Shown: in pieces, positions 591 to 16,213 of the stretch
Layout of the letters: every line of letters begins with the position of its first letter
Numbering within the stretch: position 1 is the first letter of the stretch
Assembly: GCF_006715635.1 (NCBI RefSeq)
Contig: NZ_VFNP01000002.1
Span: 2,852,001-2,916,000, forward strand
Length of the DNA stretch: 64,000 bases
Reading direction: 5' to 3'
From: Streptomyces sp. SLBN-118
Lineage (GTDB): Bacteria; Actinomycetota; Actinomycetes; Streptomycetales; Streptomycetaceae
The notes under the pieces: generated by a model
What the model saw: the letters and a program-made list of their open reading frames with translations, nothing else
What the model was told of the DNA's origin: nothing
The model's database searches: none
Position numbers and translations under genes: made by a program

Positions 591-1403
591 TCAAACAGGA
601 GGGCTTCTCCGTTTATTCCGGGTGCCCGGAGGATATTCCGGGTGCCCGGAGGATTCGGGGGGCTCGGCGGGTTGCCCGAACTCCCGCTTCTGGAACAGCC
701 TGCCGAGCTTCGGGCCGTACACCCACGCCCTGCGCTCCGCCAGCCGAAGCCCCTCCCACACGGTCACCTGGTTCGCCGTGAGCACCGGTTTGCCGACGGC
801 CTCCTCCAGATCGGCGAGATGTGCCGCCGTGTGCAGGGCGGTGTCCGGCAGCAGGACGACTTCGGCGTCGGGGTGGTCCCCCGCGCGCGCCAGTTCCAGT
901 ACTTCCTCCCGGCCCCAGGTGCCCACCTCGGCCGCCGTGACGATCCCGCTCGCCCGGTCGGCCACGACCTCGGCCCCGGACGCCTTGAGGAAGGCCGTGA
1001 ACAGGGCCGTGACGTCCTCCGGATAGGTCGCCGCGACCGCGACGCGCGAAGCGCCCAGCTCCCGCAGGGCATGCGCGAAGCCGAACGACGTGCTCGACGC
1101 GGGCAACCCCGCCGCCAGGGCGAGCGAGCGAATCTGCTCGTGCGCGCCCTCCCAGCCGTACACGAAGCTCCCGCTGGTGCACGCCCACACCACCGACTCC
1201 GCACCCGCGAGCCGCAGCTCCTCCACCCGCGCCGCGAGCCGGTCCGCCGCGCCCATCCGCAGCAGCGCGTCGACGCGGTGCGCGTCCTCGCCGATGTCGG
1301 TGTGGACGACGGGCAGCCTGATGTCGGTGTCGAGCAGCATCTCGAGCCGGGGGTAGTCGTCCTCGGCGGAATGGCCGGGGTAGAGGAGTCCGACCGTGGT
1401 CAT
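591..1403 (-). CDS. Asp/Glu racemase superfamily protein (maleate isomerase/arylmalonate decarboxylase-like), single-cysteine form
   Basis: This 270-residue protein has two racemase-type Rossmann halves. The first catalytic cysteine is present (C75 in WACTSGSF). In the second half the equivalent position is VLLPDTAL, so the second cysteine is missing. One-cysteine members of this superfamily are usually decarboxylases or isomerases rather than racemases, but those I know keep the second cysteine, so the chemistry here is open. Its ATG overlaps the upstream gene's TGA by 4 nt, implying translational coupling with the two-cysteine paralogue. The last 15 or so codons come from a 20-bp tandem duplication (615-654): with one copy the protein would end at a TAA after ESSGHPE. 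Confidence 0.85.
   Translation of the reverse strand: MTTVGLLYPGHSAEDDYPRLEMLLDTDIRLPVVHTDIGEDAHRVDALLRMGAADRLAARVEELRLAGAESVVWACTSGSFVYGWEGAHEQIRSLALAAGLPASSTSFGFAHALRELGASRVAVAATYPEDVTALFTAFLKASGAEVVADRASGIVTAAEVGTWGREEVLELARAGDHPDAEVVLLPDTALHTAAHLADLEEAVGKPVLTANQVTVWEGLRLAERRAWVYGPKLGRLFQKREFGQPAEPPESSGHPEYPPGTRNKRRSPPV
615..654. repeat. Perfect 20-bp tandem duplication in the racemase gene 3' end
   Basis: Two adjacent identical copies of ATTCCGGGTGCCCGGAGGAT lie at 615-634 and 635-654. Each contains the palindrome CCGGGTGCCCGG. The unit is not a multiple of three, so the second copy shifts the reading frame of the overlapping gene (591-1403) past its probable ancestral stop and adds a basic tail. 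Confidence 0.95.
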
Positions 1404-2242
1404 GTCCAGCCTTCCTGTTCGTCGGGGCCGGCGGGCTGAGCGGGCGGCGCCGGCTGCGCGGGCTCCGCGGGCGCGGCCTCGGACGCGGGCGGCACGTCCG
1501 CCTGCGCATCCGGCTGAAGCAGCAGGCCCTGATACGGACCGACCGCGTGGACGCCGATCCGGCGCAGCGCCGACCACATCGTCACCTGGTTCGCGGAGAG
1601 GACCGGCATCCTCAGTTCGGCCTCCAGCTGCGGGATCGCGTCGTACGTCGGCAGATTGGTGCAGCTGATGAAGAGCACGTCGGCCGCGCCCACCACCGCT
1701 TGGCGCGCCATGTCCACCACCGACCGGTACGGCACCTTCCAGATGTGCCGGGTCAGCCCGAGAAAAGCGCGTCCGGTGACGGTTGCCCCGGCCTCGCCGA
1801 GATACTCCTGCAGCGCCTCGGTGACCGATTCCGTGTACGGAGTGACCAGGGCGACACGGCAGGCGCTCAGCTCGTCGAGTGCTTCGAGCAGGGCGCCGGA
1901 CGTGGTCAGCGAGGGCACTTCCCCCGCCGCCGTCATCGCCTCGCACATGGCGCGCTCACCGGCGAGACCGCCGACGAAGCTCCCTGACGTGCAGGCGTAG
2001 GCGACCACCTCGGGCTCGGACGCGCTCAGGGCCCGTACCGCGTCGCGCAGAGTCTCGTGCTCGCTCACCAGGCGCGCGAGGTCGAGGGAGACCTCGACGG
2101 GCACGTACGGCGTACGGGTCACCCGCAGAGAGACATCGTCGGGGACCCAGCGCCACAGCTCACGGTCCAGCGCGAAGTCGAAAGGGGCGACCACGCCGAC
2201 ACCGTGCTGGGGCTGTGGTCCGCCGAGGAACGAGACATCCAT
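1400..2242 (-). CDS. Asp/Glu racemase superfamily protein (maleate cis-trans isomerase/EutA-like), two-cysteine form
   Basis: This 280-residue protein carries both expected catalytic cysteines, C84 in YACTSGSF and C194 in FISCTNLP, one at the active-site edge of each half, as in maleate isomerase and Asp/Glu racemases. The ATG at 2242 has AAGGGGG just upstream and a good promoter at 2279-2307. The C-terminus is a low-complexity Ala/Pro tail. It is first in the operon with the single-cysteine paralogue and the LLM oxidoreductase. Related proteins (EutA) occur in ectoine-utilisation loci, which fits the EhuBCDA-like importer 14 kb away, but the substrate is inferred only from context. Confidence 0.85.
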   Translation of the reverse strand: MDVSFLGGPQPQHGVGVVAPFDFALDRELWRWVPDDVSLRVTRTPYVPVEVSLDLARLVSEHETLRDAVRALSASEPEVVAYACTSGSFVGGLAGERAMCEAMTAAGEVPSLTTSGALLEALDELSACRVALVTPYTESVTEALQEYLGEAGATVTGRAFLGLTRHIWKVPYRSVVDMARQAVVGAADVLFISCTNLPTYDAIPQLEAELRMPVLSANQVTMWSALRRIGVHAVGPYQGLLLQPDAQADVPPASEAAPAEPAQPAPPAQPAGPDEQEGWT

Positions 2243-2278
2243 AGCAGGCCCCCTTATGGCCCTGACCCGTTGTTGACG

Positions 2279-2307
2279 ACGTTAGGTTCGGGTGCGAGCG
2301 TGGTCAA
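2279..2307 (-). promoter_or_regulatory. Predicted sigma-70-type promoter of the racemase operon
   Basis: Read on the minus strand, TTGACC (2307-2302) is followed after exactly 17 nt by TAACGT (2284-2279). This is close to the housekeeping HrdB consensus and would start transcription about 30 nt before the ATG at 2242. The 137-bp gap to the divergent dehydrogenase gene is where a regulator would bind. Confidence 0.6.
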
Positions 2308-2379
2308 TCCGTACATGTCAGACTCCCGCGTAAACCCCTCGGGCACGGGGGGTGCCCCCGTCGAAACGGCTTCCGCTCG

Positions 2380-3342
2380 ATGTCCGAACCCACTCTTCTG
2401 GTGCTTGCGGCCGACCCTCCGCCCCGTCTCGGCCGGCTGGCCGGACGGGTCCGCGTCCAGTACGCCGGCGAGCAGACCCTCGCGTCTCAACTTCCGCACG
2501 CCGACGTGCTGTTGGTGTGGGACTTCACCTCCGAGGCGGTACGCGCCGCCTGGCCGGGCGAGGGGCCGCGCCCGCGCTGGGTGCACACCCCGAGCGCGGG
2601 CGTCGACCGGCTGCTCTGCCCGGAACTGATCGCTTCCGACACCGTCGTCACCAATGCGCGAGGAGTCTTCGAGGAGCCGATCGCCGAGTACGTGGCCGGT
2701 CTGGTCCTGGCCATGGCCAAGGACCTCCCGGGCACCCTGGAACTCCAGCGGCAGCGGCGCTGGCGCCATCGCGAGGGCCTGCGGGTAGCGGGCACCCGGG
2801 CCACCGTCGTCGGTGCGGGCCCCATCGGCCGGGCGGTGGCCCGCACCCTGGAGGCGCTGGGTGTCACCGTGGCGGTCGTGGGCCGTACCGAGCGCGTCGG
2901 CATCCATGGCGCCGAGGACCTGGATCCGCTGCTCGCCCGCGCCGACTGGGTGGTGAGCGCCGCGCCGCTCACGGAGGCGACGCGCGGGATGTTCGACGCG
3001 CGGCGCTTCGGTCTGATGCAGCCGTCGGCACGGTTCATCAACATCGGTCGCGGGCCCCTGGTCGTCGAAAACGATCTGATGGCCGCGCTGAACAAGAGGT
3101 GGCTCGCGGGCGCGGCACTCGACGTCTTCGCATCGGAGCCGCTCACGCCCGACAGCCCGCTCTGGGACGTGCCGGGGCTGATCGTCTCGCCGCACATGAG
3201 CGGCGACACGGTGGGCTGGCGCGACCGGCTCGGGGAGCAGTTCGTGGAGCTGTACGAGTTGTGGGAGGCCGGAAAGCCGCTCCCGAACGTGGTCGACAAG
3301 AAACGTGGGTACGTCCCCATGCATGACGTCTCCGCTGACTGA
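2380..3342 (+). CDS. D-isomer-specific 2-hydroxyacid dehydrogenase
   Basis: This 320-residue protein is NAD(P)-dependent. The dinucleotide site GAGPIG is at residues 145-150. The catalytic triad of the D-2-hydroxyacid dehydrogenase family is recognisable as R224 (NIGRGPLVV), E253 (FASEPLTP) and H272 (VSPHMSG). The length is normal. It should interconvert a 2-oxo acid and a D-2-hydroxy acid; the substrate is unknown. It is transcribed divergently from the racemase operon, and the next gene overlaps its end by 20 nt, so dehydrogenase and amidase form an operon. Such a set fits breakdown of an imported carboxylated compound. Confidence 0.92.
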   Translation: MSEPTLLVLAADPPPRLGRLAGRVRVQYAGEQTLASQLPHADVLLVWDFTSEAVRAAWPGEGPRPRWVHTPSAGVDRLLCPELIASDTVVTNARGVFEEPIAEYVAGLVLAMAKDLPGTLELQRQRRWRHREGLRVAGTRATVVGAGPIGRAVARTLEALGVTVAVVGRTERVGIHGAEDLDPLLARADWVVSAAPLTEATRGMFDARRFGLMQPSARFINIGRGPLVVENDLMAALNKRWLAGAALDVFASEPLTPDSPLWDVPGLIVSPHMSGDTVGWRDRLGEQFVELYELWEAGKPLPNVVDKKRGYVPMHDVSAD

Positions 3343-4726
3343 CCTCACCGCACGCCAACTGCTCACAGGCTATGAAAAGGGCGACTTCACGCCCGTCGAC
3401 GCGACCCTCGCGGCGCTGGAGCGGATCGAGGTGGTGCAGCCGCTGGTGAATGCCTTCGTCCGGGTCGACGCCGAACAGGCACTGGCCCAGGCCCGCGCAT
3501 CCGCCGGGCGCTGGCACCGGGGCGAGCCGCAGGGGATGCTCGACGGGGTTCCGGTGACCGTCAAGGACCTGCTGCTGCAGCGCGGCGGCCCGACCCTGCG
3601 CGGCTCGAAGAACATCTCGGAGCAGGGGAGTTGGGACGAGGACGCCCCGTCCGTCGCACGGCTGCGCGCGCATGGCGCGGTCTTCCTGGGCAAGACGACG
3701 ACCCCCGAGTTCGGCTGGAAGGGCGTGACCGACTCCCCGCGGCACGGGGTGACGGGCAATCCGTACGATCCGGCGCGCACGGCGGGCGGCTCCAGCGGTG
3801 GCAGCGCCGCGGCCGTGGCGCTCGGCGCGGGTGCGCTCTCGATCGGCACGGACGGCGGCGGTTCGATCCGTATCCCCGCGTCCTTCTGCGGCGTCTTCGG
3901 GCTGAAGCCGACGTACGGGCGCGTGCCGCTGTACCCGTCGAGCCCGTTCGGCACGCTCTCGCACGCGGGCCCGATGACCCGCGACGCCGCGGACGCCGCG
4001 CTGATGCTCGATGTCATCAGCGGCGAGGACTGGCGGGACTGGTCGCATCTGGGCCCGGCGGCGGGCGTGCGCGGCACGCTCGCGGAAGGCGTGAAGGGGC
4101 TGCGCATCGCCTACTCGCCGTCCTTCGGCGGACAGGTGGCGGTGCGCCCGGCGGTCGCGTCCGCGGTACGGCGGGCGGTGGGGGCGCTCGCAGGACTCGG
4201 CGCGTACATCGAGGAGGCGGACCCCGACATCGCCGACCCGGTGGAGGCGTTCCACACCCTGTGGTTCAGCGGTGCGGCCCGGCTGCTCCAGCCCTACGGG
4301 CCCCGCCGGCGGGAGCTGCTGGACCCGGGGCTGCGGGAGATCGCCGGGCGTGGCGCGCGGTACAGCGCGCTGGAGTACCTGGCGGCCGTCGACACCCGGA
4401 TGGCGCTGGGCAGGCGGATGGGCCGCTTCCACACCTCGTACGACCTGCTGGTCACCCCGACCCTGCCGATCACGGCGTTCGAGGGGGGCGCGGAGACCCC
4501 GGGGCGTTCGGAGCACCGGCGCTGGACGGGGTGGACACCGTTCACGTACCCCTTCAACATGACGCAACAGCCCGCCGCGACGGTGCCGTGCGGCCTCGAC
4601 GAGGACGGGCTCCCGATCGGGGTCCAGCTGATCGGCCCGCGGCACGCGGACGCGGTGGTGCTGCGTGCGGCGCACGCGCTGTACGAGTCGGGTGCGGCGG
4701 CGATCCCCGCGCCTACGCTCCCGTAA
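3323..4726 (+). CDS. Amidase (amidase signature family)
   Basis: This 467-residue amidase-signature enzyme has the Ser-cisSer-Lys triad: K81 in VTVKDLLL, the serine pair in GGSSGGSAA (about 157-158) and nucleophile S181 in GTDGGGSIRIP. It hydrolyses a carboxylic amide to acid and ammonia. The ATG at 3323 is preferred; a GTG at 3305 in the same frame adds six residues and neither has a clear ribosome-binding site. It overlaps the dehydrogenase by 20 nt. Its 3' end overlaps the convergent gene 4713-5867 by 14 nt, the apparent left edge of the lanthipeptide island. Atypical family members split N-acyl or ring-opened amides, so an ectoine-type catabolic role is possible. Confidence 0.92.
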   Translation: MTSPLTDLTARQLLTGYEKGDFTPVDATLAALERIEVVQPLVNAFVRVDAEQALAQARASAGRWHRGEPQGMLDGVPVTVKDLLLQRGGPTLRGSKNISEQGSWDEDAPSVARLRAHGAVFLGKTTTPEFGWKGVTDSPRHGVTGNPYDPARTAGGSSGGSAAAVALGAGALSIGTDGGGSIRIPASFCGVFGLKPTYGRVPLYPSSPFGTLSHAGPMTRDAADAALMLDVISGEDWRDWSHLGPAAGVRGTLAEGVKGLRIAYSPSFGGQVAVRPAVASAVRRAVGALAGLGAYIEEADPDIADPVEAFHTLWFSGAARLLQPYGPRRRELLDPGLREIAGRGARYSALEYLAAVDTRMALGRRMGRFHTSYDLLVTPTLPITAFEGGAETPGRSEHRRWTGWTPFTYPFNMTQQPAATVPCGLDEDGLPIGVQLIGPRHADAVVLRAAHALYESGAAAIPAPTLP

Positions 4727-5867
4727 CCGGGGCTCCGCCCCGGACCCGGCGCCTCAAACTCCCTGACTCGTGGTGGAGGCTGGTCCCGATCACGCGGGCG
4801 CTCGTGCGCAGTGCGGCCGCGAGTTGGTCGCCCAGCTCACTTGGGAGAGTCCCAGCTCCGAGTGCGCAGGCGTGGAGCAGAGCACGGCAGTCCTGCGCCT
4901 CCCGATCGGTGGCGAGGGCAGTGAACAGCGGGTGCGCCAGGCTCTCTCGGGCGGCGTAGCCGTCGGTCGTCTTCATCGTCCGGCGATGCAGTTCCGCAAC
5001 CACCAGGCGCGCGGCCGGGGCCTTGACCGAGTCGACCACGTCCAGCACTGCGAGCCCGAGCCTCACGTCGAAGACGGCCATGTCGTCCCTGTCCGGGCGT
5101 TCGAGGTAGGTGGTCACCAGGTTCTGCAGGGAGCGCCGCCAGGCCCGCCCCGTTATGCGGCGGCACAGGACTGTCAGGCAGTCCGTGACGACGCCTTCCC
5201 ATCCCTCTCCGGGCACTGTGTGGGCCAGGAGGCTGTTGGCGCCGAGGCTGTTTCCGCTCGCGAGGGCGGCGAGGACGGCGACTTGTCGGCCGTCGAGCAT
5301 GTGCTGTCCTACGCCGCGGTGCGCCTCGACGTGGGCGAGTGCTTCGGCCCAGCGGCCGGCAGTGGTCAGGGCGCGTGTGCCGTCGGCGAGGAGGACACTC
5401 CACAACCAGACGCGGACCTCTTGTCGGTCGTCGGCGTTCGCTACGAGGTGAGCGGGTACGGAGATGTCCTCGACCTGGGCGGGGCTCCCGGCGGTGACGG
5501 CGTCGAAAAGCGTCAGGAGGCGTTGGCGGCCGTCGTCGGCCTGTCCGGCGCGGAGTTGGAGGCGCGCGAGGTTGACGACGGGTTCGAGTGCGCGGATCGC
5601 GGTCCTGCCGGGCAGGGGGGCGGCCTGCAGGTAGGCGGCGGCGTGCTGGTGGCACATCGCGCGAGCGGTGTCCGGGGCGCCTATGTCGGAGGCGATCAGC
5701 GCTGCCTGGTTGTAGACCGTGGAGGCCATGCTCGGGTCGCCCAGGTTCGCTGCGGTGTCGGCAAGTTCGACCAGGGCGTACACCCGCTGGGGCAGAGGGA
5801 GGCAGGCAGGACGGGGGCGGGCGATGAGCGGGAAGCGCTGGGCGATGGCGTCAGGGGGTTTCCACAC
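4713..5867 (-). CDS. Helical-repeat (TPR-like) protein, last gene of the lanthipeptide operon
   Basis: This 384-residue protein is almost entirely alpha-helical and alanine-rich, with segments such as VYALVELADTAANLGD that resemble the C-terminal TPR-like half of Streptomyces XRE regulators, but no helix-turn-helix. The GTG at 5867 is chosen because AAAGGA lies about 11 nt upstream and it overlaps the preceding stop by 17 nt; the open frame extends to 6005 only through non-conserved sequence. The C-terminal SGSLRRRVRGGAPVTGA is read from the GC-rich hairpin and the amidase end, so the native end may have been lost at an insertion junction. A scaffold or regulatory role in lanthipeptide maturation is a guess. 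Confidence 0.7.
   Translation of the reverse strand: MWKPPDAIAQRFPLIARPRPACLPLPQRVYALVELADTAANLGDPSMASTVYNQAALIASDIGAPDTARAMCHQHAAAYLQAAPLPGRTAIRALEPVVNLARLQLRAGQADDGRQRLLTLFDAVTAGSPAQVEDISVPAHLVANADDRQEVRVWLWSVLLADGTRALTTAGRWAEALAHVEAHRGVGQHMLDGRQVAVLAALASGNSLGANSLLAHTVPGEGWEGVVTDCLTVLCRRITGRAWRRSLQNLVTTYLERPDRDDMAVFDVRLGLAVLDVVDSVKAPAARLVVAELHRRTMKTTDGYAARESLAHPLFTALATDREAQDCRALLHACALGAGTLPSELGDQLAAALRTSARVIGTSLHHESGSLRRRVRGGAPVTGA
4727..4743. terminator. GC-rich hairpin after the amidase gene
   Basis: CCGGGGC-TCC-GCCCCGG is a perfect 7-bp-arm hairpin starting at the amidase stop. No U-tract follows. It resembles the 'ggggctccgcccc' intergenic elements seen again near 15610 and 57980, and lies inside the 3' end of the convergent gene. 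Confidence 0.5.
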
Positions 5868-6681
5868 GGTCCGCAGCGGTCCTTTCGATGGTGGGGTCGG
5901 GGCCGAAGATGACGGTCTTGGCGGCGGCTGCGAGGGCGGCCTGCGTGAGGTAGGGCAGGCCGATCCGGTTCCAAGCGAAAAGCACGTGGTGGGCCAGGAC
6001 GTCACGCAGGCCGCGGTGCAGCTGCCCGGAAGCTGTGAGGTGGGCCAGTTCCCGTCCGGCGTCGGTGTAGGCGCGGACCCATCCGGCGATGTGGGCCAGT
6101 GGTCCGCCCGTGCGTATCAGGTCTTCACCTTTCACAGAGATCAGCCGTTGGACGGCTGTGTGAAGTCGATCGCGGCTGTTCCGTTCGGTACCTCGGGGCT
6201 GTGCACGGTGGGCACCGACGCGTGCCCAGACGTCTCCCTGCTCGTACCAGTCCAGTCCGGCGGAGCGCATCAGGAGGCTGCAAAGCATGAGGGATGTCTC
6301 GCGTCGGTGTTTGCCGGCGTCGACCTGGAGGTGGTCCAGCAGGCTTCGGCTGTCGCGGTGGAAGAGGCGGTGAGCGGATGCCATGGCTTCGGCGCCGCCG
6401 AAGGCGTGCACCTCGGGTTCGTAGATGATCTCCGTCCACCCTTTGATGTACCCGTCGGCGATCAGCGCGTCCAGGCCCTGGCCGATGCGGTCCTGCGCGT
6501 AAGCGACAGGGAGGTAGCGCACGCGCCAGCACGGGTGTTTGCGGACGAGGAACCACGCGGTGAGTGCGCCTTCGTCCTCTGCGGTGCGCAGGAGCGGGGC
6601 GAGTTGGGCCAGAGCCACTATCTCGGCGCGTTCCCAGTCCGGGAACGCGACGTTGGCCTGGCACCAGGTGGGTGAGTTCAT
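5851..6681 (-). CDS. Thiopeptide-type bacteriocin biosynthesis protein (stand-alone SpaB_C-like domain)
   Basis: This 276-residue protein begins QANVAFPDWERAE and contains AWFLVRKHPCWRVRYLP, the hallmark pattern of the SpaB C-terminal (glutamate-elimination) domain of lantibiotic dehydratases; compare ARWWFVRYRDPEDHLRVRL in the fused LanB of this cluster. In split LanB systems this domain removes glutamate from glutamylated Ser/Thr to give dehydroamino acids. Here it is an extra copy, because the LanB at 7942-10851 already has its own. It lies 19 nt after lanC and overlaps the next gene. Possible roles are a second elimination or another tRNA-dependent modification. Confidence 0.8.
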   Translation of the reverse strand: MNSPTWCQANVAFPDWERAEIVALAQLAPLLRTAEDEGALTAWFLVRKHPCWRVRYLPVAYAQDRIGQGLDALIADGYIKGWTEIIYEPEVHAFGGAEAMASAHRLFHRDSRSLLDHLQVDAGKHRRETSLMLCSLLMRSAGLDWYEQGDVWARVGAHRAQPRGTERNSRDRLHTAVQRLISVKGEDLIRTGGPLAHIAGWVRAYTDAGRELAHLTASGQLHRGLRDVLAHHVLFAWNRIGLPYLTQAALAAAAKTVIFGPDPTIERTAADRVETP

Positions 6682-6700
6682 GAGGCGGCCTCCGGGGTGT

Positions 6701-7945
6701 TCACGCCAGGGCGAGGAAGGTGTCCCAGTGCGGTGCGGGCGCGCTGCCCGTGCCGAGGGTGTGCAGGGCGAGGGCTGCTCCGGCGGCTCCGTCGAGGAGT
6801 TCCGGGTCGTGGTCGTCCTGGTCGAGCGCGGTGATCAGACGGTCGGCCAGGCGCGGCAACTCCGCGGTGATGGCGGTGTTGCCCGTCTCGGTGGACATCC
6901 GCCACGCGGCGTGCAGCAGCCCGGCCATGCCGTGGCACAGCCCGATCTCGGGGAGCTTGTCCAGTTGGAGCGGGTCGCGCAGGGTCGCAAGGATCGCGTT
7001 CTCGGCTGCACGTACGCGTACCGGGTCGCGGAGGGCGAGTCCGGCCAACTGCTGGGCGCGGGCGGTGCCGCTGACGCCGTAGCACCAGGAGGGCCGGGGC
7101 CGAAGGTCTGGATGGACATGCCCGTCGGTCGCCTGCTCCATCGAGATCATGCCCGGCCACCAGGGGCCGGTCTCGTCACCTTGGCGCCACTGGTCGGTCC
7201 AGGCACAGATCCGCTCGACCGCATCGACCATGCCGGGCACGGCCAGGTCGCGCAGCAGAGCCAGAGACAGCACGGACAGCGCGGAGCCGATGCCGTGGGA
7301 GAGCCCGAAGTTCCCGTGCCCCTGGTGGTAGTCGGCGCTGGGTGCACCGGTAGTCGCGACGTTCATCCACCACGGCGGCAGCCCGGCCGGATTGGGCAGA
7401 GGCTCGGTCAGGCGCACCAGGTAGGCCAGGACGTCATAGGTGATCTCATGATGCGGGTGTCGGCTCAGGTGGTAGGCGCCCAGCCCGGACAGGCCCTGGA
7501 TCAGGTCGAACTCTTCCATGGGGGGCCGCTCGGCGCGGTCGATGCGCAGGTGGGCCTCGGCCAGACGGGTCCGGGTGACAGTGAGGGTCGCCTCGTCCAA
7601 GCGTTCCAGGACGCGCAGGTACCGGCTCGATGCGCTGGCCGCGCGGTGCGTAATGAACGCGAGGGCCGGGGCGCCGAAGTACAAGTTTGCGTTGGCCGCT
7701 GCGCTCACTTCGCCGTGCACGGCCGCGGCCAGCCAGGTGTGCGCGGTGTCCCAGTCGCCGCGGCCGGTCCGGGCGCGCTCGATGTGCAGCAGCGCGATTC
7801 CCGAGGCTCCTCCGGCGAGAGACTGCGGCCACGAGCGGCCGACGTCCGGCCGGCCGCCGGGCCACACGGCGCGGGGGTCGGCCAGGCCGTGCGCCAGCCG
7901 GTCGGCGGTCGACAGCGCGGCGGGGGCGGGGGCTGTCGTGGTCAC
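6701..7945 (-). CDS. lanC: Lanthipeptide cyclase LanC
   Basis: This 414-residue LanC-family cyclase catalyses addition of cysteine thiols to dehydroalanine/dehydrobutyrine to form (methyl)lanthionine rings. The zinc ligands are visible as C288 (SWCYGVSG) and C337-H338 (GLCHGMAG), with further family signatures GLSGLGAYHL and HGNFGLSHGIGSAL. The GTG start at 7945 overlaps the lanB TGA by 4 nt and has AAGGAG 6-10 nt upstream, which argues against the longer frame reaching 8035. It is co-transcribed with lanB and the SpaB_C-like gene. Confidence 0.92.
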   Translation of the reverse strand: MTTTAPAPAALSTADRLAHGLADPRAVWPGGRPDVGRSWPQSLAGGASGIALLHIERARTGRGDWDTAHTWLAAAVHGEVSAAANANLYFGAPALAFITHRAASASSRYLRVLERLDEATLTVTRTRLAEAHLRIDRAERPPMEEFDLIQGLSGLGAYHLSRHPHHEITYDVLAYLVRLTEPLPNPAGLPPWWMNVATTGAPSADYHQGHGNFGLSHGIGSALSVLSLALLRDLAVPGMVDAVERICAWTDQWRQGDETGPWWPGMISMEQATDGHVHPDLRPRPSWCYGVSGTARAQQLAGLALRDPVRVRAAENAILATLRDPLQLDKLPEIGLCHGMAGLLHAAWRMSTETGNTAITAELPRLADRLITALDQDDHDPELLDGAAGAALALHTLGTGSAPAPHWDTFLALA

Positions 7946-10851
7946 GGTGTTCTCCTTGCTCGTGCCGTCCAGCTCAGGGCGGCGGCTCTGGCCAGGTGCA
8001 GGTGTGCGCGTTCTTGGGGCAGTCCCGGCCTGCACATCCGGACGTGGTGGAGATGCAGCAGGTCCGCGAGCAGGTCTTGCGGATGCAGCGTCTTCGCGTC
8101 CTCCAGCGCACTGCGGTAGGCGTTCAGCGCCACGCGGCGTGCGGACCAGCTCGCGGTGACGCGCGCGTCAAGGCCCGAAGGGTCGGCGTTCACCAGGTCG
8201 ACGGCTTGGCGGTAGACGGCGCGGGGCGGCGCGGTCGTGTCCGTGCGGGTGTGCTCGATCAGCCAGCGCATCGCCTCGGCGTCGTCCCCGATGAGGCCGG
8301 TAGCGATGTCCACCATGCTCGCCGCGGTCACCGCGCGGCCGTCAGGTGCGTTCTTCCCGGCCTGCGCGGCGAGTTGGGCCAGGGCGGCGTCGGTGTCGGC
8401 GGCGAAATACTCCTCGGCCGCGTCCATCGCCGCAGGGCCGCCGAAGCGGCCGGTCTCCGGGCGGTAGGTCTCCACGCTGGCGTGGGTGATCAGGCCGCTG
8501 TGCCGAAGCTGCCGGGTCCACTCGCCGACCTTCTCGATGGCGGAGCCGAGTGCGCCGGGCGCGCAGGTCAGACGGACGCGGAGGTGGTCCTCGGGGTCTC
8601 GGTAGCGAACGAACCACCACCGGGCTCCTCCCAGTTCTTCGAGCAGGGTCGGCAGGCGCTGGGTCAGGAGGGAGTCTTGCCGGTCGCGGTGCCCGTGGAG
8701 CTGAAGATAGATGCGGTTGTCGCAGCCGGGCAGATGGCCGTGCTCGCGGCCGACGACGTGGCCCGATCCTCGGACGGGGGCGACGGATTGATATGCGGCG
8801 GCCAGGGGGATGACGACCTCGTGAGCGCGGCCGCCGGTCCATCCCAGGTCCCTGGGCCCAGGCGCGGGGCGCAGCGTCACCTTGCCGTCGCGGTCCAGGT
8901 GCGTACGTAGCAGGGCCCGGTGTGAGGGCTCCGCCAAGTCCAGGGCCATGCACTGGTCGGCCTCGCTCAGGTACACCCGCTCGGGCAGATGAACGTCACG
9001 GCGCCATTGGGTCAGGGCTTCGTCCCACTGCGGCCACGGTGCCGACGCGCCGGGCAGATCGTCGCTGGTGAGGAGCCAGCGGGCCGGAGACAGGATCGTG
9101 CGCCCGTAGCGCAGCGCGGGCAGGAACGACAGGTTGGAGGCGGCGCTGCCCCACATGAACCCGGTGCACGGAACGGCCAGCGCGACGGGTGCCTCGATTA
9201 AGAACCGTGCCAACGGATGCGTGTGATGGCCCAGATCCACCGCGTTCAGCAGCAACGTGTGCACCGGGCGGCGGCGGGAGAGCGAGACCAGGTGCAGCCG
9301 TTCGGCATCGGCGGTCACCGCCAGATCCGTCACGGGAACCAGGCTCGTGTCCGAGTCCTGGTAGTCGCCGAGTGAGATCACCAGCTCTGTCGCCCGCGGG
9401 GCGCGCGCGACGTTCTCGGCGCGTACGTACAGCGGAGTGGAGCTGATCTGCGCGACGAGCGCGTCCCGGTGGACGCCGGGCAGTTGGGCGTACACCTCGG
9501 TCATGCGATGGCGGTCCTCGGCGTCCAGCAGGCCCAGCAAGCGGCCGGTGGTCGCTCCGGCCGAGCGTGCCACCCCGACGACGTGAAGCGTGAACTCGCC
9601 CTGTTCCAGGGCCGGAACGCCCGCGGCGTGGATGCGGACGGTCACCTCAGTGCTCGGCTGCACGGGGTGGCCAGGATCTGTGGCAGCCAGTTCCTCGAGC
9701 TCGGCATCGTCGAGCTGGACTTCGAGGCGGCGCCGCATCCCGGCGGCGTGGGCGAGCGTGATGAGTCGGCTGTCGCGGTCGGGCAGCGGGGAGGGCGCCT
9801 GCGCGGTGGTGGCCCCGAGGTAGCCGGACGGGTACCCGAGCACGTCGACGGCGTCCACGACGGGTACGACCGCCCTTGGCCCGTACCGCTCAAGGAACCG
9901 GCTGTGCCACTCCGTCCATCCGGTCAGCGCCGCACGGGGTGCGAGGCGGGTGAGCGCCTTGGCGGCCGCTGCCGCCTCCTTCGCCACCGTCTCCGGGACG
10001 ACCAGATCCCAGTCCACCCGCAGGTCGAGCGCGGGCTTGGGGGCGTCGCGTAACTCTGCTGACTCAGCGGGCGCGAGATGCTGCGCGTGTTTGAGGAGGG
10101 CGGCGAGCGGGTCGGTGACCGTCATCGCCGGGCGGAGGCTGGTGATCAGGAATCGTTGCCTGACCAGGCTCGCGAGTAGCTTCTCGATCGCGGCGAGCGG
10201 CGCGGTCGGGAAACTGGCGGAGAGCTTGGCGGTGAGGTCGCTCCACAGGATCGGAGTCCGCGCGCTGTCCAGGGCTTCGCGGACCGGTACGGTCATGCGT
10301 ATCTGCACGTGTTCGGGACCGCCGTCGCGCGCGCCGCGTGGGCGGTGCTCGATCACCACGTACCCGTCGTACTCGACGGTGAGGTTGGAGGTGAGCAGCA
10401 TGAGATGGGGCCGCAGTCCGCTGTGCTCCTCGAACCGGTCGATGAGGGCCGTGGTCCATGCCGCGTCGGGCCTGGCGGCTGCCTGGTGCCCGGTGCCCAC
10501 GCGCAGCGCGGGGGCGGCGCCTATTCGCGCGGCCGCGACCCCGGCGAACAGACCGAACGGGGTGGCGCGCGTGCGGGCGCGCAGCAGGTAGCGCAGCACG
10601 GACAGCACCGTGCGGCGTACGTCGGGGTCCGGCAGCGACTGGCCGGCACAGATTTGGTTCACTCGACGCGTGAGGTCTGGGCTGGCGGATGTGACGGCGG
10701 TCGCGAAGTCGGCCGTCTGCCAGGCCTGTTGCAGCCACGCCCGCCACGACGCGGTGTTCGCGGACGGTTCGGTCAGCTCCGGCCAGGCCACCTGACGGTC
10801 GGGGCTCCACGCGGCCGCCCTTACCACTGCTGCATCAACGTAGCGATACAC
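7942..10851 (-). CDS. lanB: Lantibiotic dehydratase LanB (full length, with fused SpaB_C domain)
   Basis: This 969-residue protein is a class I lanthipeptide dehydratase. The N-terminal two-thirds is the glutamylation domain (motifs RTRATPFGLFAGVA near residue 100 and ARFLIEAPVALAVPC), which uses glutamyl-tRNA to glutamylate Ser/Thr. The C-terminal approximately 270 residues are a SpaB_C elimination domain (ARWWFVRYRDPEDHLRVRL). The GTG at 10851 is preferred because AGGAGG lies 4 nt upstream; an in-frame ATG at 10869 lacks a site. Two leucine codons are TTA, at 10053-10051 and 9201-9199, so translation may need the bldA tRNA. It sits 85 nt after the precursor gene. Confidence 0.93.
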   Translation of the reverse strand: MYRYVDAAVVRAAAWSPDRQVAWPELTEPSANTASWRAWLQQAWQTADFATAVTSASPDLTRRVNQICAGQSLPDPDVRRTVLSVLRYLLRARTRATPFGLFAGVAAARIGAAPALRVGTGHQAAARPDAAWTTALIDRFEEHSGLRPHLMLLTSNLTVEYDGYVVIEHRPRGARDGGPEHVQIRMTVPVREALDSARTPILWSDLTAKLSASFPTAPLAAIEKLLASLVRQRFLITSLRPAMTVTDPLAALLKHAQHLAPAESAELRDAPKPALDLRVDWDLVVPETVAKEAAAAAKALTRLAPRAALTGWTEWHSRFLERYGPRAVVPVVDAVDVLGYPSGYLGATTAQAPSPLPDRDSRLITLAHAAGMRRRLEVQLDDAELEELAATDPGHPVQPSTEVTVRIHAAGVPALEQGEFTLHVVGVARSAGATTGRLLGLLDAEDRHRMTEVYAQLPGVHRDALVAQISSTPLYVRAENVARAPRATELVISLGDYQDSDTSLVPVTDLAVTADAERLHLVSLSRRRPVHTLLLNAVDLGHHTHPLARFLIEAPVALAVPCTGFMWGSAASNLSFLPALRYGRTILSPARWLLTSDDLPGASAPWPQWDEALTQWRRDVHLPERVYLSEADQCMALDLAEPSHRALLRTHLDRDGKVTLRPAPGPRDLGWTGGRAHEVVIPLAAAYQSVAPVRGSGHVVGREHGHLPGCDNRIYLQLHGHRDRQDSLLTQRLPTLLEELGGARWWFVRYRDPEDHLRVRLTCAPGALGSAIEKVGEWTRQLRHSGLITHASVETYRPETGRFGGPAAMDAAEEYFAADTDAALAQLAAQAGKNAPDGRAVTAASMVDIATGLIGDDAEAMRWLIEHTRTDTTAPPRAVYRQAVDLVNADPSGLDARVTASWSARRVALNAYRSALEDAKTLHPQDLLADLLHLHHVRMCRPGLPQERAHLHLARAAALSWTARARRTP

Positions 10852-10936
10852 AACGCCTCCTGTGGCCATGCGGTGCCCGGCCGCGCCCATGGGTCAGGAT
10901 CGGCCGGGTACCGCGATCAACGCCGGTCTGGTGCTG

Positions 10937-11128
10937 CTACGGGCAGCTCACGCACGCGGTCGCGCACGTCGAGTTGCAGCCGTCGCTCGTCAGGCGGATG
11001 AGCTGGTCCGCGGCGGGGCCGCCTTCGACGATGGTGATGTCCAGGTCGAAGTCAGCCAGGCCGGGCGCCTGCTGGTCTTCGCCGGCCGGCTGCGCAGGAG
11101 CAACCGGGCGCTCCAGTTGAACGGTCAT
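10937..11128 (-). CDS. lanA: FxLD-family lanthipeptide precursor peptide
   Basis: This 63-residue precursor has the defining FDLD motif (in LADFDLDITIVEGG) in the leader and a Ser/Thr/Cys-rich end, LTSDGCNSTCATACVSCP, as substrate for LanB/LanC. The core offers four cysteines and six Ser/Thr residues, and an Asp-Gly step (SDGC) suited to isoaspartate formation. The ATG at 11128 has GGAGG 6 nt upstream; an upstream ATG at 11140 overlaps that motif and is unlikely. It lies between the methyltransferase and lanB genes on the same strand. No protease or transporter gene is seen nearby, so leader removal and export must rely on other proteins. Confidence 0.9.
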   Translation of the reverse strand: MTVQLERPVAPAQPAGEDQQAPGLADFDLDITIVEGGPAADQLIRLTSDGCNSTCATACVSCP

Positions 11129-11167
11129 GTATGCCTCCATGGGGCAGTGGGCTGATGGTGCAAGGTC

Positions 11168-11190
11168 CCAGGGCCCGAGAGGGGCCCTGG
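11168..11190. promoter_or_regulatory. Hairpin between the methyltransferase and precursor genes
   Basis: CCAGGGCCC-GAGAG-GGGCCCTGG is a perfect 9-bp-arm inverted repeat just after the methyltransferase stop and 40 nt before the precursor start. There is no U-tract. It could be a partial terminator or an mRNA-stabilising element that lets the precursor be expressed at a different level from the enzymes. Confidence 0.55.
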
Positions 11191-11194
11191 AGTC

Positions 11195-12400
11195 TTAGTG
11201 CCAGGACACCGTGACGATGCCGTGGCGCTTCAGCACGGCGTCCTGGGGCAGGGAGGACGGAGCGGGGCCCGGGAGGTACCGGAACGTCGCAGCTCCCCGG
11301 CGGCGGTGGTTTTGGGCCCAGCGGCGGAGCAGGTACACGTACGCCTCCGCGAGGGCTTCGGCCTGCGGACCGTGGGCGATTACGCCGCTCTCGAATCCGC
11401 CGGTGTCCTCGTTCTCACGGCGGGTGCGATAAGCGATGCTGTCCTCGCCGACCAGGGCGGGCACGCCGTACAGCGCCGAGGGCTCCACGAGCCCCTGCTC
11501 GACGATGTGCTCAGCCGCGTGCAGCCGGGCCGCGCGCGGAAGGTTGAGCGAGAGGTACAGCTCCAGCTCGTCCGGCAGGTCATAGGCTGCCCCAGACCAG
11601 CGCTCCAGCCTCGGGGTGTCCAGAGCCTGGTTCAGCGCCTGGCCATCGAGGCGCACCCGCACGTCATCGGTCTGCACAGCAACGCCATCACGCAGCATCA
11701 CCTTGCGCTCCTCGGCGGCGCCGTCGCCCTGCATGGGCACGAAGCGCGCCAGGCAGTAGGAACGGCTGAGCAGGTCCCCGCCGTCGCGGTCGAACGCGAT
11801 CGAGCGGGTAGTGCCGCGTGCCGTCAGAGGGACGACGAGCCTGCCCTTCTCGGCAAGCTCGCTGATCCACGACGGAGGGATGTCCCACGCGGCCGCGGTG
11901 ACGATGATCCGGTCGTACGGTGCCCCGTCGGGAACGCCTGCCTCGCCGTCGGCGAGTGCCGTCTTCACCTGGCCGTACCCGGCGTCGTCCAGGCACATAC
12001 GGGCGCGTTCGACGATGTCGCGGTCGATGTCGACCGTGGTGACCGCCCCGTCGCTGCCTACGATTTCCTGGATGAGCGCGGCGTTGTAGCCGCCGGAGCC
12101 GATCTCCAGGACCTTCATGCCGGGCTCGATGTCGGCCTGCTCCAGCATCACGGCCTGGAGGTGAGCGGCGGACATGACGCTGATGTCGAGGCCGTGCTCG
12201 TCCTTCTTGACCGGCACAGTGCGGTGGAGGTCGTAGGCGAGTTCCAGGGGCGCGTCGGGTGCGAACCGGTGCCGCGGCACTGCGACGAAGGCAGCGGCGA
12301 CCGGCTCGGACGTGACCGCGCCCTCTTCACGGAGTGCGCTGACCATAGCCGCGCGCAGTGCGGCGGGTTCACCAACAGTCGAGTCGCTGGCAGTTGTCAT
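11195..12400 (-). CDS. FxLD-system protein-L-isoaspartate methyltransferase-like enzyme
   Basis: This 401-residue protein has a PIMT-like N-terminal domain: PRHRFAPDAPLELAYD, SVMSAAHLQAVMLEQADI, and SAM-binding VLEIGSGGYNAALI with the acidic VDIDRD. The C-terminal approximately 170 residues are specific to the 'methyltransferase, FxLD system' family. PIMT homologues in lanthipeptide clusters methylate an Asp side chain so that it passes through a succinimide to isoaspartate. The Asp-Gly in the precursor core is the obvious candidate. It is first in the biosynthetic operon; the 162-bp gap upstream (12401-12562) should hold the promoter, though I see no clear -35/-10 pair. Confidence 0.9.
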   Translation of the reverse strand: MTTASDSTVGEPAALRAAMVSALREEGAVTSEPVAAAFVAVPRHRFAPDAPLELAYDLHRTVPVKKDEHGLDISVMSAAHLQAVMLEQADIEPGMKVLEIGSGGYNAALIQEIVGSDGAVTTVDIDRDIVERARMCLDDAGYGQVKTALADGEAGVPDGAPYDRIIVTAAAWDIPPSWISELAEKGRLVVPLTARGTTRSIAFDRDGGDLLSRSYCLARFVPMQGDGAAEERKVMLRDGVAVQTDDVRVRLDGQALNQALDTPRLERWSGAAYDLPDELELYLSLNLPRAARLHAAEHIVEQGLVEPSALYGVPALVGEDSIAYRTRRENEDTGGFESGVIAHGPQAEALAEAYVYLLRRWAQNHRRRGAATFRYLPGPAPSSLPQDAVLKRHGIVTVSWH

Positions 12401-13200: not shown

Positions 13201-14604
13201 ATGCCGCAGCCAGAGAAAAAGCTCGACCCGGGGGCATCCCCGCAAGAGTGGTTCGGCTACGAGCTACGCCTTCGACGCAAGGCAGAGGAACTGTCGGCCC
13301 GCGCATTGGGGCGCTTAGTGCAGGTCAGCGACGATGTGATCTTGAACATTGAGAAGGGGAAATACCCGTCGTGCCAAAGGGAGTTGGCGCAGCGCCTCGA
13401 CGGCATCCTTGAAACCGGAGGCGTCTTCGACCGGGCATGGCCCATGGCTTTCGACCCCCGTGATGCCGATAGAAAACGCTCTGATGCCGACAAGCGCCCT
13501 GCGGGCAGGCGGGAAGGAACGGTTCAGGTGCGCGAAGGCCGCATCCTGGGCAGAGACGAACCATCTCCTCGCCCTGGGAGCCCTGAGCCCGTGGACCGAC
13601 GCTCGTTCCTCCAAGTCAGTGGCCTTGCCGCCATCGCCCCCATAGACCTCACCCAGGCTTTCGCCCCGTCCGGTCTGACGCTGCCCGAGTCCGTCGGCGC
13701 GAGCCACATCGACCAGATCCAGGAAGTTGCAACCTCAATCAGCAGCTGGGACAACACGTTCGGCGGCGGCGGTATGGTCCGCGACGTCGCCGGCCGAGCC
13801 ATGCAATGGTCTGCAGGCCTTCTTCAGGCCCAGTGCCCGGAACACATGCGCGCCGACCTCTTTGCCGCCGTTTCACGTCTCGGCGTCGTCGTGGGGGCTT
13901 CCGCGTTCGACTCCTACGCGCACGAGGAAGCCACCACGACCTTCAAGTTCGCAGCGGACTGCGCAGAGGAGGCCGGGGACTGGCACTTGCGCGCCAAGAC
14001 ATACAGCTTGCTCGCCCGGCAGGCCGTGTGGATCGGACAGCCCGACGACGGGCTGACCTACGCCGAGAAGGGCTTGGTTCGCCGCGACCGCCTGACGGCG
14101 ACCGAGCAGGCGATGCTGCACACGGCGCGCGCCCGAGCGTTCGGAAAGATGGGCAATGTCCGCGATTGCATGGCCGCCGTCGGAGAGGCCGACGATGCAT
14201 TCACGCAGGCCCGCCCCGCAGAAGACCCCGCGTGGATGGCGTACTACGACGAGGCCCAGCACAACGGTGACACAGCCCACGCACTGTTCGACCTCGCGAT
14301 CCTCGCCGGCCAGGACCCCGGGCGGGCAATCAGGCGCTTCTACACCGCGGTGAAGGGGCACTCCGAGGCCTTCAAACGGTCCCGGGCGCTCTCCCGCACC
14401 AAGCTCGCCGCGCTCCTGATGGCCAAGGGCGACCCGCGGCAGGCCGCAGTCATCGGGCATGACTCCCTGGACGAGGTCGGCCGACTCACCTCCCGTCGCG
14501 CCGCCGATGATCTTCGGCAGCTCGGGGCCTTCGCCTCCAAGCATCCGAAGGTTCAGGACGCCGTAGGCCTGCGCGAGCGCATCACCGCTACCGTCTCGGC
14601 ATGA
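13201..14604 (+). CDS. XRE-family regulator with C-terminal TPR-like domain
   Basis: This 467-residue protein has a helix-turn-helix at about residues 18-72 (ELRLRRKAEELSARALGRLV, then VSDDVILNIEKGKYP), a Tat-like linker (DRRSFLQVSGLAAIAP, also common in this cytoplasmic family) and a helical-repeat C-terminus from about 175. Such regulators commonly accompany FxLD and other RiPP clusters. Leu39, inside the DNA-binding domain, is encoded by TTA (13315-13317), so translation would be bldA-dependent. The ATG follows GGGACGGGAC. The next gene overlaps by 4 nt (ATGA). Confidence 0.88.
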   Translation: MPQPEKKLDPGASPQEWFGYELRLRRKAEELSARALGRLVQVSDDVILNIEKGKYPSCQRELAQRLDGILETGGVFDRAWPMAFDPRDADRKRSDADKRPAGRREGTVQVREGRILGRDEPSPRPGSPEPVDRRSFLQVSGLAAIAPIDLTQAFAPSGLTLPESVGASHIDQIQEVATSISSWDNTFGGGGMVRDVAGRAMQWSAGLLQAQCPEHMRADLFAAVSRLGVVVGASAFDSYAHEEATTTFKFAADCAEEAGDWHLRAKTYSLLARQAVWIGQPDDGLTYAEKGLVRRDRLTATEQAMLHTARARAFGKMGNVRDCMAAVGEADDAFTQARPAEDPAWMAYYDEAQHNGDTAHALFDLAILAGQDPGRAIRRFYTAVKGHSEAFKRSRALSRTKLAALLMAKGDPRQAAVIGHDSLDEVGRLTSRRAADDLRQLGAFASKHPKVQDAVGLRERITATVSA

Positions 14605-15488
14605 CCACGTCGGCTGCCGCACCCGCCCACACTGCCCTCGAAGAGGCCTGCTCGGCTGTCGGACTGGATGCCGACGGTGCCGAGCCGGTACGGCTGGCCG
14701 AGAACCAGATATGGCGGCTACCGGGCCAGCAGGTGATCGTGCGCATCGCCCGTACCGGGCAGTCTGCGGCCGCCAGCCGGGAGGTCCGCGTCGCCCGTTG
14801 GCTCGCCGAGAACGACGTTCCGGCCGTGCGCGTGGTCGACGTCGAGCAGCCGGTCGAGGCAGGGGGAAGGCCAGTCACCTTCTGGAAAGAGCTCCCATCC
14901 CACGAACAGGGCACACCGCGCGACATCGCGCAGTTGCTCCGACAGCTCCACGCGCTCGGCGCCCCTGATCTCGAGCTCGGTTACCTCGACCCGTTTGTCC
15001 GGATCGCCGAGCGGCTCCAGGCGGCGACGACCCTGGACGAGGCCGACCGCGCGTGGCTGCACGGTCTCCACCAGGACCTCGTCGTGGCATGGTCCGATCT
15101 GCCGGCGGGGCGCGCAGACTGTGCCGTGCACGGTGACGCCTGGCCAGGCAACCTCATCCGTACGGGCAGTGGGCCAGTGATGATGGACCTGGAGCGGTTC
15201 TCGCTCGGGCCGCCGGAATGGGACCTCGTCTCAACTGCCGTACGCACAAGGACAACCGGCGCGGTCACCGCGGCCGAGTACGACAGTTTCTGTGCCGCGT
15301 ATGGGTTCGACGTCACCGACTGGGCCGGTTACGAAATCCTGGCCGGCGCCCGGGAGCTCCGGTTGGTGACCTACGCAGCCCAGCACGCGGCCGGCAACCC
15401 CGTATGGGCGGATCAGGCCCAGTACCGGGTTGACTGCTTGCGCGGTCGCCACGGTCCCCGCCCGTGGAACTGGAAAGGGATCTTGTAG
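14601..15488 (+). CDS. Aminoglycoside phosphotransferase (APH)-like kinase
   Basis: This 295-residue protein has the APH/choline-kinase fold signatures: the Brenner motif CAVHGDAWPGNLI (catalytic Asp and Asn) and MMDLERFSLGPPEWDL supplying the metal-binding acid. Length and motif spacing fit the family. Its start overlaps the XRE regulator stop (ATGA), so the two are translationally coupled. The substrate could be a small molecule, or it could serve in self-protection or signalling; nothing in the sequence decides. It is the last gene of the apparent island. Confidence 0.85.
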   Translation: MTTSAAAPAHTALEEACSAVGLDADGAEPVRLAENQIWRLPGQQVIVRIARTGQSAAASREVRVARWLAENDVPAVRVVDVEQPVEAGGRPVTFWKELPSHEQGTPRDIAQLLRQLHALGAPDLELGYLDPFVRIAERLQAATTLDEADRAWLHGLHQDLVVAWSDLPAGRADCAVHGDAWPGNLIRTGSGPVMMDLERFSLGPPEWDLVSTAVRTRTTGAVTAAEYDSFCAAYGFDVTDWAGYEILAGARELRLVTYAAQHAAGNPVWADQAQYRVDCLRGRHGPRPWNWKGIL

Positions 15489-15584
15489 CTATCGGGCGCC
15501 CACCGAACGCAACCGGTCGGCGATGTCGAATGCGTCAAGCCGCAGCGCCTTGATGTCCTCGATCAATCCAGCCCGTCCGGACAT
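15489..15584 (-). pseudogene. Short coding remnant or small protein (31 codons)
   Basis: On the minus strand MSGRAGLIEDIKALRLDAFDIADRLRSVGAR is followed by TAG. The composition is protein-like (alternating charged and aliphatic residues, amphipathic helix), but there is no ribosome-binding site before the ATG. It looks like the C-terminal end of a longer gene whose upstream part is gone. It abuts the phosphotransferase stop and lies at the right edge of the lanthipeptide island, so it may be a scar of the insertion. The rest of the gap to 15676 contains a 'ggggcggagcccg' GC hairpin and nothing else recognisable. Confidence 0.4.
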
Positions 15585-15676
15585 TGAGGATACGCCCGCA
15601 GGGCGTACGGGGCTCGGGGCGGAGCCCGCACCCGGCGGAGACGCAGAATGTCACAGCGGGAATGGGCGGGTGGGGG

Positions 15677-16171
15677 CTATCCACCTCGCCGGAAGCTGAG
15701 CGTCTCGCCCAGCGCGCCCGCCCGCCACAGGTCCTGGCAGGCCTCGGCCATCCGGTCCAGGCCTTCCACCACCGTGCCCCAGACGATGCCGGGCACCCAC
15801 CCGGTGTCGCCGTTCAGCAGGAGGTTGTTCCGCTCGTAGAACAGCGCCAGGTCGACCGTGACGGCGCGGGAGACGTCGCGGTCGTATCCGTACGCCGCCG
15901 TGCTCAACTCCGTACCGCTGAACGTGAAATAGCACAGGTCGCCCGGAATCGGGGTCACCGTCGGGTTCTCCAGCGGTGGCTCCTGTTCCGCGAACGCCGG
16001 GAACAGAGCGTAGATCTCATTGCGTGCGTACTTCGCGTGGTACACGTCCCCGGCGAGCGGCAGCGCGTCCCACACGGCCGCGCAGGTGAGCGGGGCCTTG
16101 TCGTCGAGGAGCTTCGCGGTGCAGCGGACACCGCGCTTGTCGAGGGCTACGGTCATGTATCGGTCGGCCAT
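15677..16171 (-). CDS. DUF3830 family protein
   Basis: This 164-residue cyclophilin-like protein of the DUF3830 family contains VYHAKYARNEIYALFPAF, PIPGDLCYFTFSGTEL and LFYERNNLLLNGDTGWVPG. DUF3830 genes recur beside maleate-isomerase-like, amidase and polar amino-acid ABC transporter genes, as here; the biochemical role is unknown. The ATG at 16171 lies 42 bp from the divergent ehuB-like start, so both promoters share a very short interval. Its neighbours suggest it belongs with the racemase/amidase genes now 11 kb away. Confidence 0.85.
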   Translation of the reverse strand: MADRYMTVALDKRGVRCTAKLLDDKAPLTCAAVWDALPLAGDVYHAKYARNEIYALFPAFAEQEPPLENPTVTPIPGDLCYFTFSGTELSTAAYGYDRDVSRAVTVDLALFYERNNLLLNGDTGWVPGIVWGTVVEGLDRMAEACQDLWRAGALGETLSFRRGG

Positions 16172-16213
16172 CTCGTACGCATACCCAGCCAGGAGCCGGG
16201 TAGCCGCGCGCCC

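Follow-up and report, generated by a model that had tools for sequence, protein, structure and literature searches.

Clusters for class I lanthipeptides with a PIMT-like methyltransferase are common in actinobacteria (837, later 1305, have been reported; PMC13001092), and the actinobacterial class I precursor families I 1-4 are described as sharing a fully conserved core Asp, a PIMT-like enzyme and stand-alone elimination-domain proteins (PMC7268733). In OlvA, from the olv cluster of Streptomyces olivaceus NRRL B-3009, the Asp lies inside a methyllanthionine (MeLan) ring, is methylated only after cyclisation and passes through an aspartimide to 70-80% isoaspartate (PMC13001092). Both OlvA(BCSA) and mCoiA1, the latter from the coi cluster of Streptomyces coelicolor A3(2), were produced heterologously, and according to a 2022 paper no native producer had yet yielded a product of the coi or olv group (PMC9486935). 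This fits a remark in an earlier sequence-only reading of the DNA studied here, that few products of the family have solved structures. Here we analyse an FxLD-type cluster in a 64,000-nucleotide stretch of Streptomyces sp. SLBN-118 (contig NZ_VFNP01000002.1, positions 2,852,001 to 2,916,000), which we call the window. The explanation that we favour, and hold to be likely, is that this cluster makes an isoaspartate-containing class I lanthipeptide (a 'lanthimiditide') that probably has four rings.

Six minus-strand genes make up the cluster (window 4713-12400), in the reading order methyltransferase, precursor, LanB, LanC, stand-alone lyase-type domain and TPR-like protein (aa, amino acids):

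11195..12400, minus strand: PIMT-like O-methyltransferase, LanS_A-type, 401 aa (TIGR04364, PF01135)
10937..11128, minus strand: FxLD precursor, 63 aa, with FDLD leader and core end LTSDGCNSTCATACVSCP (TIGR04363; start after GGAGG)
10982..10984, minus strand: codon of Asp49, the predicted methylation, aspartimide and isoaspartate site in TSDGC, a TxDxC-type motif (role taken from OlvA, PMC13001092)
7942..10851, minus strand: LanB dehydratase, 969 aa, with its own C-terminal lyase domain (PF04738, PF14028; start from the two-copy comparison)
6701..7945, minus strand: LanC cyclase, 414 aa (PF05147; aligned to NisC, 2g02)
5851..6681, minus strand: stand-alone PF14028 protein, 276 aa, probable syn-type glutamyl lyase (K48, A93, R53, R55, E90)
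4713..5867, minus strand: TPR-like protein, 384 aa (TPR superhelix model; by place the CoiH counterpart)

One of the closest described relatives is coi, which we compared through its published description and residue numbers (PMC9486935) rather than through the coi sequences themselves. By that account coi (CoiB, CoiC, CoiSA, CoiH) shares an FxLD-type precursor with a conserved Asp, a full LanB, LanC, a PIMT-like enzyme, an extra syn-type lyase and one further protein without known function. In coi, however, lyase and methyltransferase form one fused protein and the product has three rings, whereas the window has separate genes (5851-6681 and 11195-12400), a fourth Cys, the methyltransferase gene in first place and a Ser where CoiA1 has Thr57, the residue of its D-allo-L-MeLan (PMC9486935). 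With olv the window shares the precursor, LanB, LanC and a PIMT-like enzyme of the kind that turns a core Asp into isoaspartate; olv forms four rings with the additional one on the N-terminal side and has no extra lyase, whereas here the extra Cys is C-terminal and a stand-alone PF14028 gene is present (PMC13001092, PMC9486935). A separate syn-type lyase protein is also described for the SapT cluster (SptBa/SptBb; PMC9011353, PMC9890492), where LanB is split and SptBb is the sole lyase, in contrast to the full-length LanB with its own lyase domain in the window. In the open-licence literature, supplements excluded, we found no solved product for the branch whose lyase is separate and whose core has four Cys.

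Curated models confirm that the cluster is real and of the FxLD class I type, as the sequence-only reading had proposed. The precursor scores 60.7 bits against TIGR04363 ('FxLD family lanthipeptide', cut-off 30; taken on the 67-residue open reading frame (ORF) 10937-11140), and the methyltransferase scores 541.5 bits against TIGR04364 ('methyltransferase, FxLD system', cut-off 320) and also matches PF01135. These are the two profile searches that the reading had put forward as a check, and the failure of the 63-residue ORF to match, which it had named as refuting, did not occur; its description of that precursor, with an FDLD leader and four Cys and six Ser/Thr in the core, holds. LanB joins PF04738 (586 bits) and PF14028 (154.3 bits) in one protein, LanC matches PF05147 at 129.4 bits, and the stand-alone domain matches PF14028 at 87.6 and TIGR03891 at 190.8 bits. 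Thus, glutamylation and lyase domains lie together in LanB, with LanC encoded by the next gene, as expected for class I. Profile matches and the ORF check placed every part that had been named where the reading put it and on the strand it gave; the TPR-like gene at 4713-5867, which it left unnamed, belongs to the gene set as well. Beyond that reading, Asp49 is most likely the site of the methyltransferase and the extra SpaB_C gene most likely a syn-type glutamyl lyase. From sequence and the comparison with a second copy described below, LanB most likely starts at the GTG at 10851, behind AGGAGG, and the LanC start is revised to the GTG at 7945, overlapping the LanB stop; the start of the TPR gene was adjusted likewise and is GTG or ATG, depending on the copy. 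Chance is excluded because of the curated scores, a second copy with ratios of nonsynonymous to synonymous substitution (dN/dS) of 0.24-0.43 and the presence of the gene set in 50 of 80 loci. The TIGR04363 score by itself rules out a precursor that is a chance ORF.

The methyltransferase has the features set out for lanthimiditides in PMC10787088 and PMC13001092, namely a PIMT-type enzyme with a long C-terminal extension and a TSDGC core. Its PCMT domain (PF01135) covers residues 17-224 of 401 and about 175 residues follow it; such an extension is described for PIMTs associated with ribosomally synthesised and post-translationally modified peptides (PMC10787088). A pattern search found a TxDxC-type motif in 69 of 70 precursor matches, the sole exception (L079) having a leader and no such core. 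Only this figure is informative, because the cores were chosen by that pattern and the constancy of Asp and Cys within them is by construction. The residue after the Asp is Gly in 48, Asn in 15, Ser in one and Glu in one of the 65 cores of lyase-containing loci (window included). By analogy with OlvA, an aspartimide and then isoaspartate are the predicted fate of Asp49. A perfect hairpin (11167-11191) sits between the methyltransferase gene, which it follows directly, and the precursor, and it recurs in the second copy, where its stem is slightly shorter; it may be chance, because 15 of 200 shuffles fold equally well.

By residue numbers, the mCoiA1 rings join positions 1-5, 8-13 and 15-9 (PMC9486935), and the window residues at these places are Thr47-Cys51, Thr54-Cys59 and Ser61-Cys55. 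This leaves Thr57 and Cys62, and our guess is that they pair as a fourth ring. The four-ring core of the sequence-only reading is plausible. The alternative that survives best, although we judge it unlikely, is that only three rings form, as in mCoiA1, with Cys62 free or otherwise paired. The three mCoiA1 rings at equivalent positions and the mCoiA1 Ser that escapes dehydration (PMC9486935) speak for it, as does the indirect way in which ring four was arrived at. Set against this, 61 of 64 stand-alone-type cores combine a fourth, C-terminal Cys with a Ser/Thr at position 11, and mOlvA does form a fourth ring within the family, albeit at its N-terminal side (PMC9486935). Fused-type cores have three Cys and no C-terminal one in all 13 cases (13 of 14 precursor matches; one in L116 lacking the motif was excluded), so the fourth Cys occurs in 0/13. 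We prefer four rings.

The stand-alone PF14028 protein, the extra SpaB_C gene of the earlier reading, carries the published signature of a syn-glutamyl lyase and is probably a second lyase of the syn type. We compared it and 62 stand-alone relatives with the LanB lyase domains of the same set of loci (63 plus the window). The stand-alone proteins keep the glutamate-binding Arg pair (61/63 and 63/63) and the Glu (63/63), and they have replaced the catalytic Arg (NisB R826) with Ala in 60, Val in two and Ile in one (A93 in the window). At the place where 56 of 64 LanB domains have Tyr and the other eight His, all 63 have Lys (K48 in the window). The LanB domains retain the canonical, anti-type residues, with Arg, Arg and Glu in 62/64 each and the catalytic Arg in 64/64. 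Lys in place of Tyr and loss of the catalytic Arg are the differences between syn- and anti-lyases given in PMC9486935; the peptide stayed glutamylated with K46A of CoiSA(ED) (PMC9011353), and net syn-elimination was demonstrated for SptBb (PMC9890492). By motif and the alignment of relatives, the likely counterparts of K46, R51, R53 and E89 of CoiSA(ED) are K48, R53, R55 and E90 here.

Two further comparisons place the protein. A tree was built from 64 stand-alone lyases, 11 fused ones and 10 LanB domains drawn at random from 63. The stand-alone proteins group together in it (support 95/87; 97% of 200 bootstrap trees), and the lyase-methyltransferase fusions fall outside this group. Alignments A2 and A3 hold 47 of 64 and 39 of 48 available sequences, respectively. 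Of the 11 fused lyases, 10 have the Lys, and 7 carry Pro in place of the first binding Arg. The predicted structure (predicted local distance difference test, pLDDT, 94.1) finds its best fold matches in the lyase domains of solved LanB enzymes, with thiopeptide cyclases next; a PDB sequence search with the lyase and the TPR protein yielded little. That the protein could instead act as a [4+2] cyclase in the manner of the thiopeptide enzymes TbtD and PbtD, or tailor the core in some other way, strikes us as improbable: the fold is shared, but the residues and the best matches favour a lyase. As a side observation, LanB frames of 723 and 709 aa in L126 (4925-7093) and L127 (12222-14348) end before the lyase domain and adjoin a lyase-methyltransferase fusion; there the syn-type enzyme may be the only lyase.

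The distribution of the cluster points to a conserved unit. Counting the genome of the window, 63 of 150 congeneric genomes have a methyltransferase match above the family cut-off. We examined 80 named actinobacterial loci, which are the best 80 of at least 495 confirmed candidates, lean to close relatives and include those cut by contig ends. All six genes occur in 50 of them, and 13 have five, with no TPR gene in the available DNA; the rest hold the methyltransferase only (10), the methyltransferase and precursor (five) or other subsets (two). Precursor, LanB, LanC, lyase and TPR gene follow one order in 50 of 50 complete loci, with the methyltransferase ahead of the precursor as read from the gene listing. 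When DNA was compared with 18 named loci and L112, ten Streptomyces loci each gave a single unbroken alignment over 7 kb, starting no lower than window 4784 and reaching no more than about 150 bases past the methyltransferase start. These limits match the six genes, so the recurring module consists of them and includes neither a transporter nor a protease. The sequence-only reading had noted that the cluster encodes neither function; neither belongs to the conserved module, and PMC9486935 likewise speaks of clusters without a protease. In crude motif scans of the 50 complete loci, a subtilase motif appeared in none and an ABC-ATPase ORF in five; a BLAST group that we read as ABC transporters covers four loci and adds L059 as a sixth. 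Twenty stretches were also fetched as possible fused types: 12 have precursor, LanB, LanC and lyase, and eight have methyltransferase matches only. The 12 show the coi arrangement, with precursor, LanB, LanC, a lyase fused to the methyltransferase and then the TPR gene; the L117 locus has its lyase part split between two frames and only a partial TPR gene. L116 (G013) holds three precursor and three methyltransferase-family matches, one of the latter fused to a lyase, within about 12 kb. Remnant-like loci include L079, with a methyltransferase and its coreless precursor, and L041, with a methyltransferase and pieces of LanC and lyase.

The same genome (7.8 Mb, two contigs) encodes a second LanB and a second FxLD methyltransferase above the cut-off. 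They belong to a second copy at G000:C2, about 20.7-28.3 kb, with 92.4% identity over 7,606 bases; the aligned part (window 4788-12383 against L035 7694-15277) is nearly exactly the six genes. The flanks fail to align and carry different genes, an AMP-binding enzyme and an AAA-like gene lying near the second copy; this and the identity value rule out an assembly duplicate. Neither copy has a broken frame among its six genes, and the one amino-acid difference between the two precursors lies in the leader, leaving the cores identical. The dN/dS values of 0.24-0.43 per gene were computed on the initially called ORFs, including short extensions before the revised starts, and the precursor value rests on two changes. 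The synonymous rate (dS) rises from 0.02 in the precursor and 0.095 in the methyltransferase to about 0.16 in lanB and lanC and 0.23 in the genes for the lyase and the TPR-like protein, a gradient that would fit exchange preserving similarity at the precursor end. In 20 sets compared (19 of the 20 loci come from the 80), the second copy is nearest for five of the six window proteins; for the lyase, L036 from another species is nearer (87.7 vs 85.5%), and a recent duplication of the cluster is one possibility. A decayed or silent window copy beside a working second one is very improbable: two copies per genome and partly lost loci elsewhere (10 of 80 keep the methyltransferase only) would suit it, but the intact frames, identical cores and dN/dS of both copies oppose it.

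Several observations weigh against a functional, four-ring lanthimiditide cluster with a syn-type lyase. First, three of the 13 fused-type cores lack a fourth Cys despite a Ser/Thr at position 11, so this residue alone is no marker of a fourth ring. Second, loss of the catalytic His of anti-lyases is an ambiguous mark: its LanB column is a gap in 63 of 63 stand-alone proteins, yet two conserved His lie two to three residues away. Third, 30 of the 80 loci are without one or more of the genes in the available DNA, several being cut by contig ends. Finally, the CoiA1 syn-lyase acts on Thr57 (position 15) and converts the T57S variant poorly (PMC9486935), and by residue numbers from the same paper the window has Ser61 at this place. 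Position 15 is Ser in 35, Thr in just 12 and another residue in 18 of the 65 cores in lyase-containing loci; most fused-type cores are one residue shorter before the third Cys, and their position 15 is not strictly comparable. Because of the Ser here and the poorly converted T57S, lyase action exactly as in coi is impossible. Seven of 64 cores have Thr at positions 1 and 8 only, and together with the position 15 counts this suggests that the lyase of this branch acts on another Thr or tolerates Ser.

This last point gives the locus part of its value. At Ser, syn- and anti-elimination lead to the same dehydroalanine, yet the lyase signature has been retained. Either a different Thr (47, 54 or 57) has become the site of syn-elimination, giving a different stereochemical pattern, or the lyase is now a Ser enzyme. 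The family is known, but in the branch to which this cluster belongs the syn-type lyase is encoded separately and the core has four Cys; the cluster offers a clear test of the second lyase's site together with a conserved TPR partner.

We establish here the gene content, family membership, lyase signature, conservation and co-occurrence; for each chemical step of the lanthimiditide reading we draw on the characterised relatives. LanB would bind the FDLD leader and glutamylate core Ser/Thr from Glu-tRNA, and its own lyase domain would remove glutamate by anti-elimination. The stand-alone lyase would strip glutamate from one or more residues, with syn geometry if a Thr is concerned. LanC, whose Cys and Cys-His motifs align with NisC and supply what we take to be zinc ligands, would close the thioethers, probably Thr47-Cys51, Thr54-Cys59 and Ser61-Cys55, with Thr57-Cys62 as the fourth. 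The PIMT-like enzyme would then methylate Asp49 within the first ring, the ester passing through an aspartimide to mainly isoaspartate, and leader removal and export would fall to proteins encoded elsewhere. The TPR-like protein may be an accessory, most simply a scaffold for the peptide or the enzymes, although this role is a guess.

That protein gave no Pfam or NCBIfam match at E 0.001. Weak TPR matches occur in up to 11 of 39 aligned members, the window protein having sub-threshold ones only, and its predicted structure is a helical TPR superhelix (pLDDT 94.3). Fold comparison returned tied TPR matches only, among them the RRNPPA-type peptide sensors NprR and Rap and equally unrelated TPR proteins, and a receptor role is for this reason a guess. 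By place it should be the counterpart of CoiH, which PMC9486935 names in coi with function unknown. The gene is present in 50 of the 80 loci (split over two frames in L040 and L057, cut by the contig end in L049) and in 12 of 12 coi-type loci, one of them partial. In the 150 congeneric genomes the protein is nearly confined to FxLD clusters: there are 34 matches in 30 genomes, 32 of them within 1.5 kb of a lyase match (counted by eye), and the other two lie beside a methyltransferase fragment (G141) or are partial with no lyase listed (G030). We also entertain, as a long shot, that the product acts inside the producer and is not an exported antibiotic, the TPR-like protein binding the finished isoaspartyl ring peptide and relaying a signal; such a role would explain a conserved module with neither exporter nor protease.

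Around the cluster, an anti-sigma-like ATPase gene (PF13581, 12563-13120) lies immediately upstream on the same strand, followed by a divergent HTH_31 gene (13201-14604). Among the 50 complete loci, a group that we read as such ATPases is upstream in 10, and groups of helix-turn-helix-type regulators occur in 17 and 12 (by eye). An Asp/Glu-racemase-like gene, a hydroxyacid dehydrogenase and an amidase (1400-4726) lie on one side of the cassette and a phosphotransferase, a solute-binding protein and permeases (14601-18407) on the other, as if it had been set into a catabolic or uptake region.

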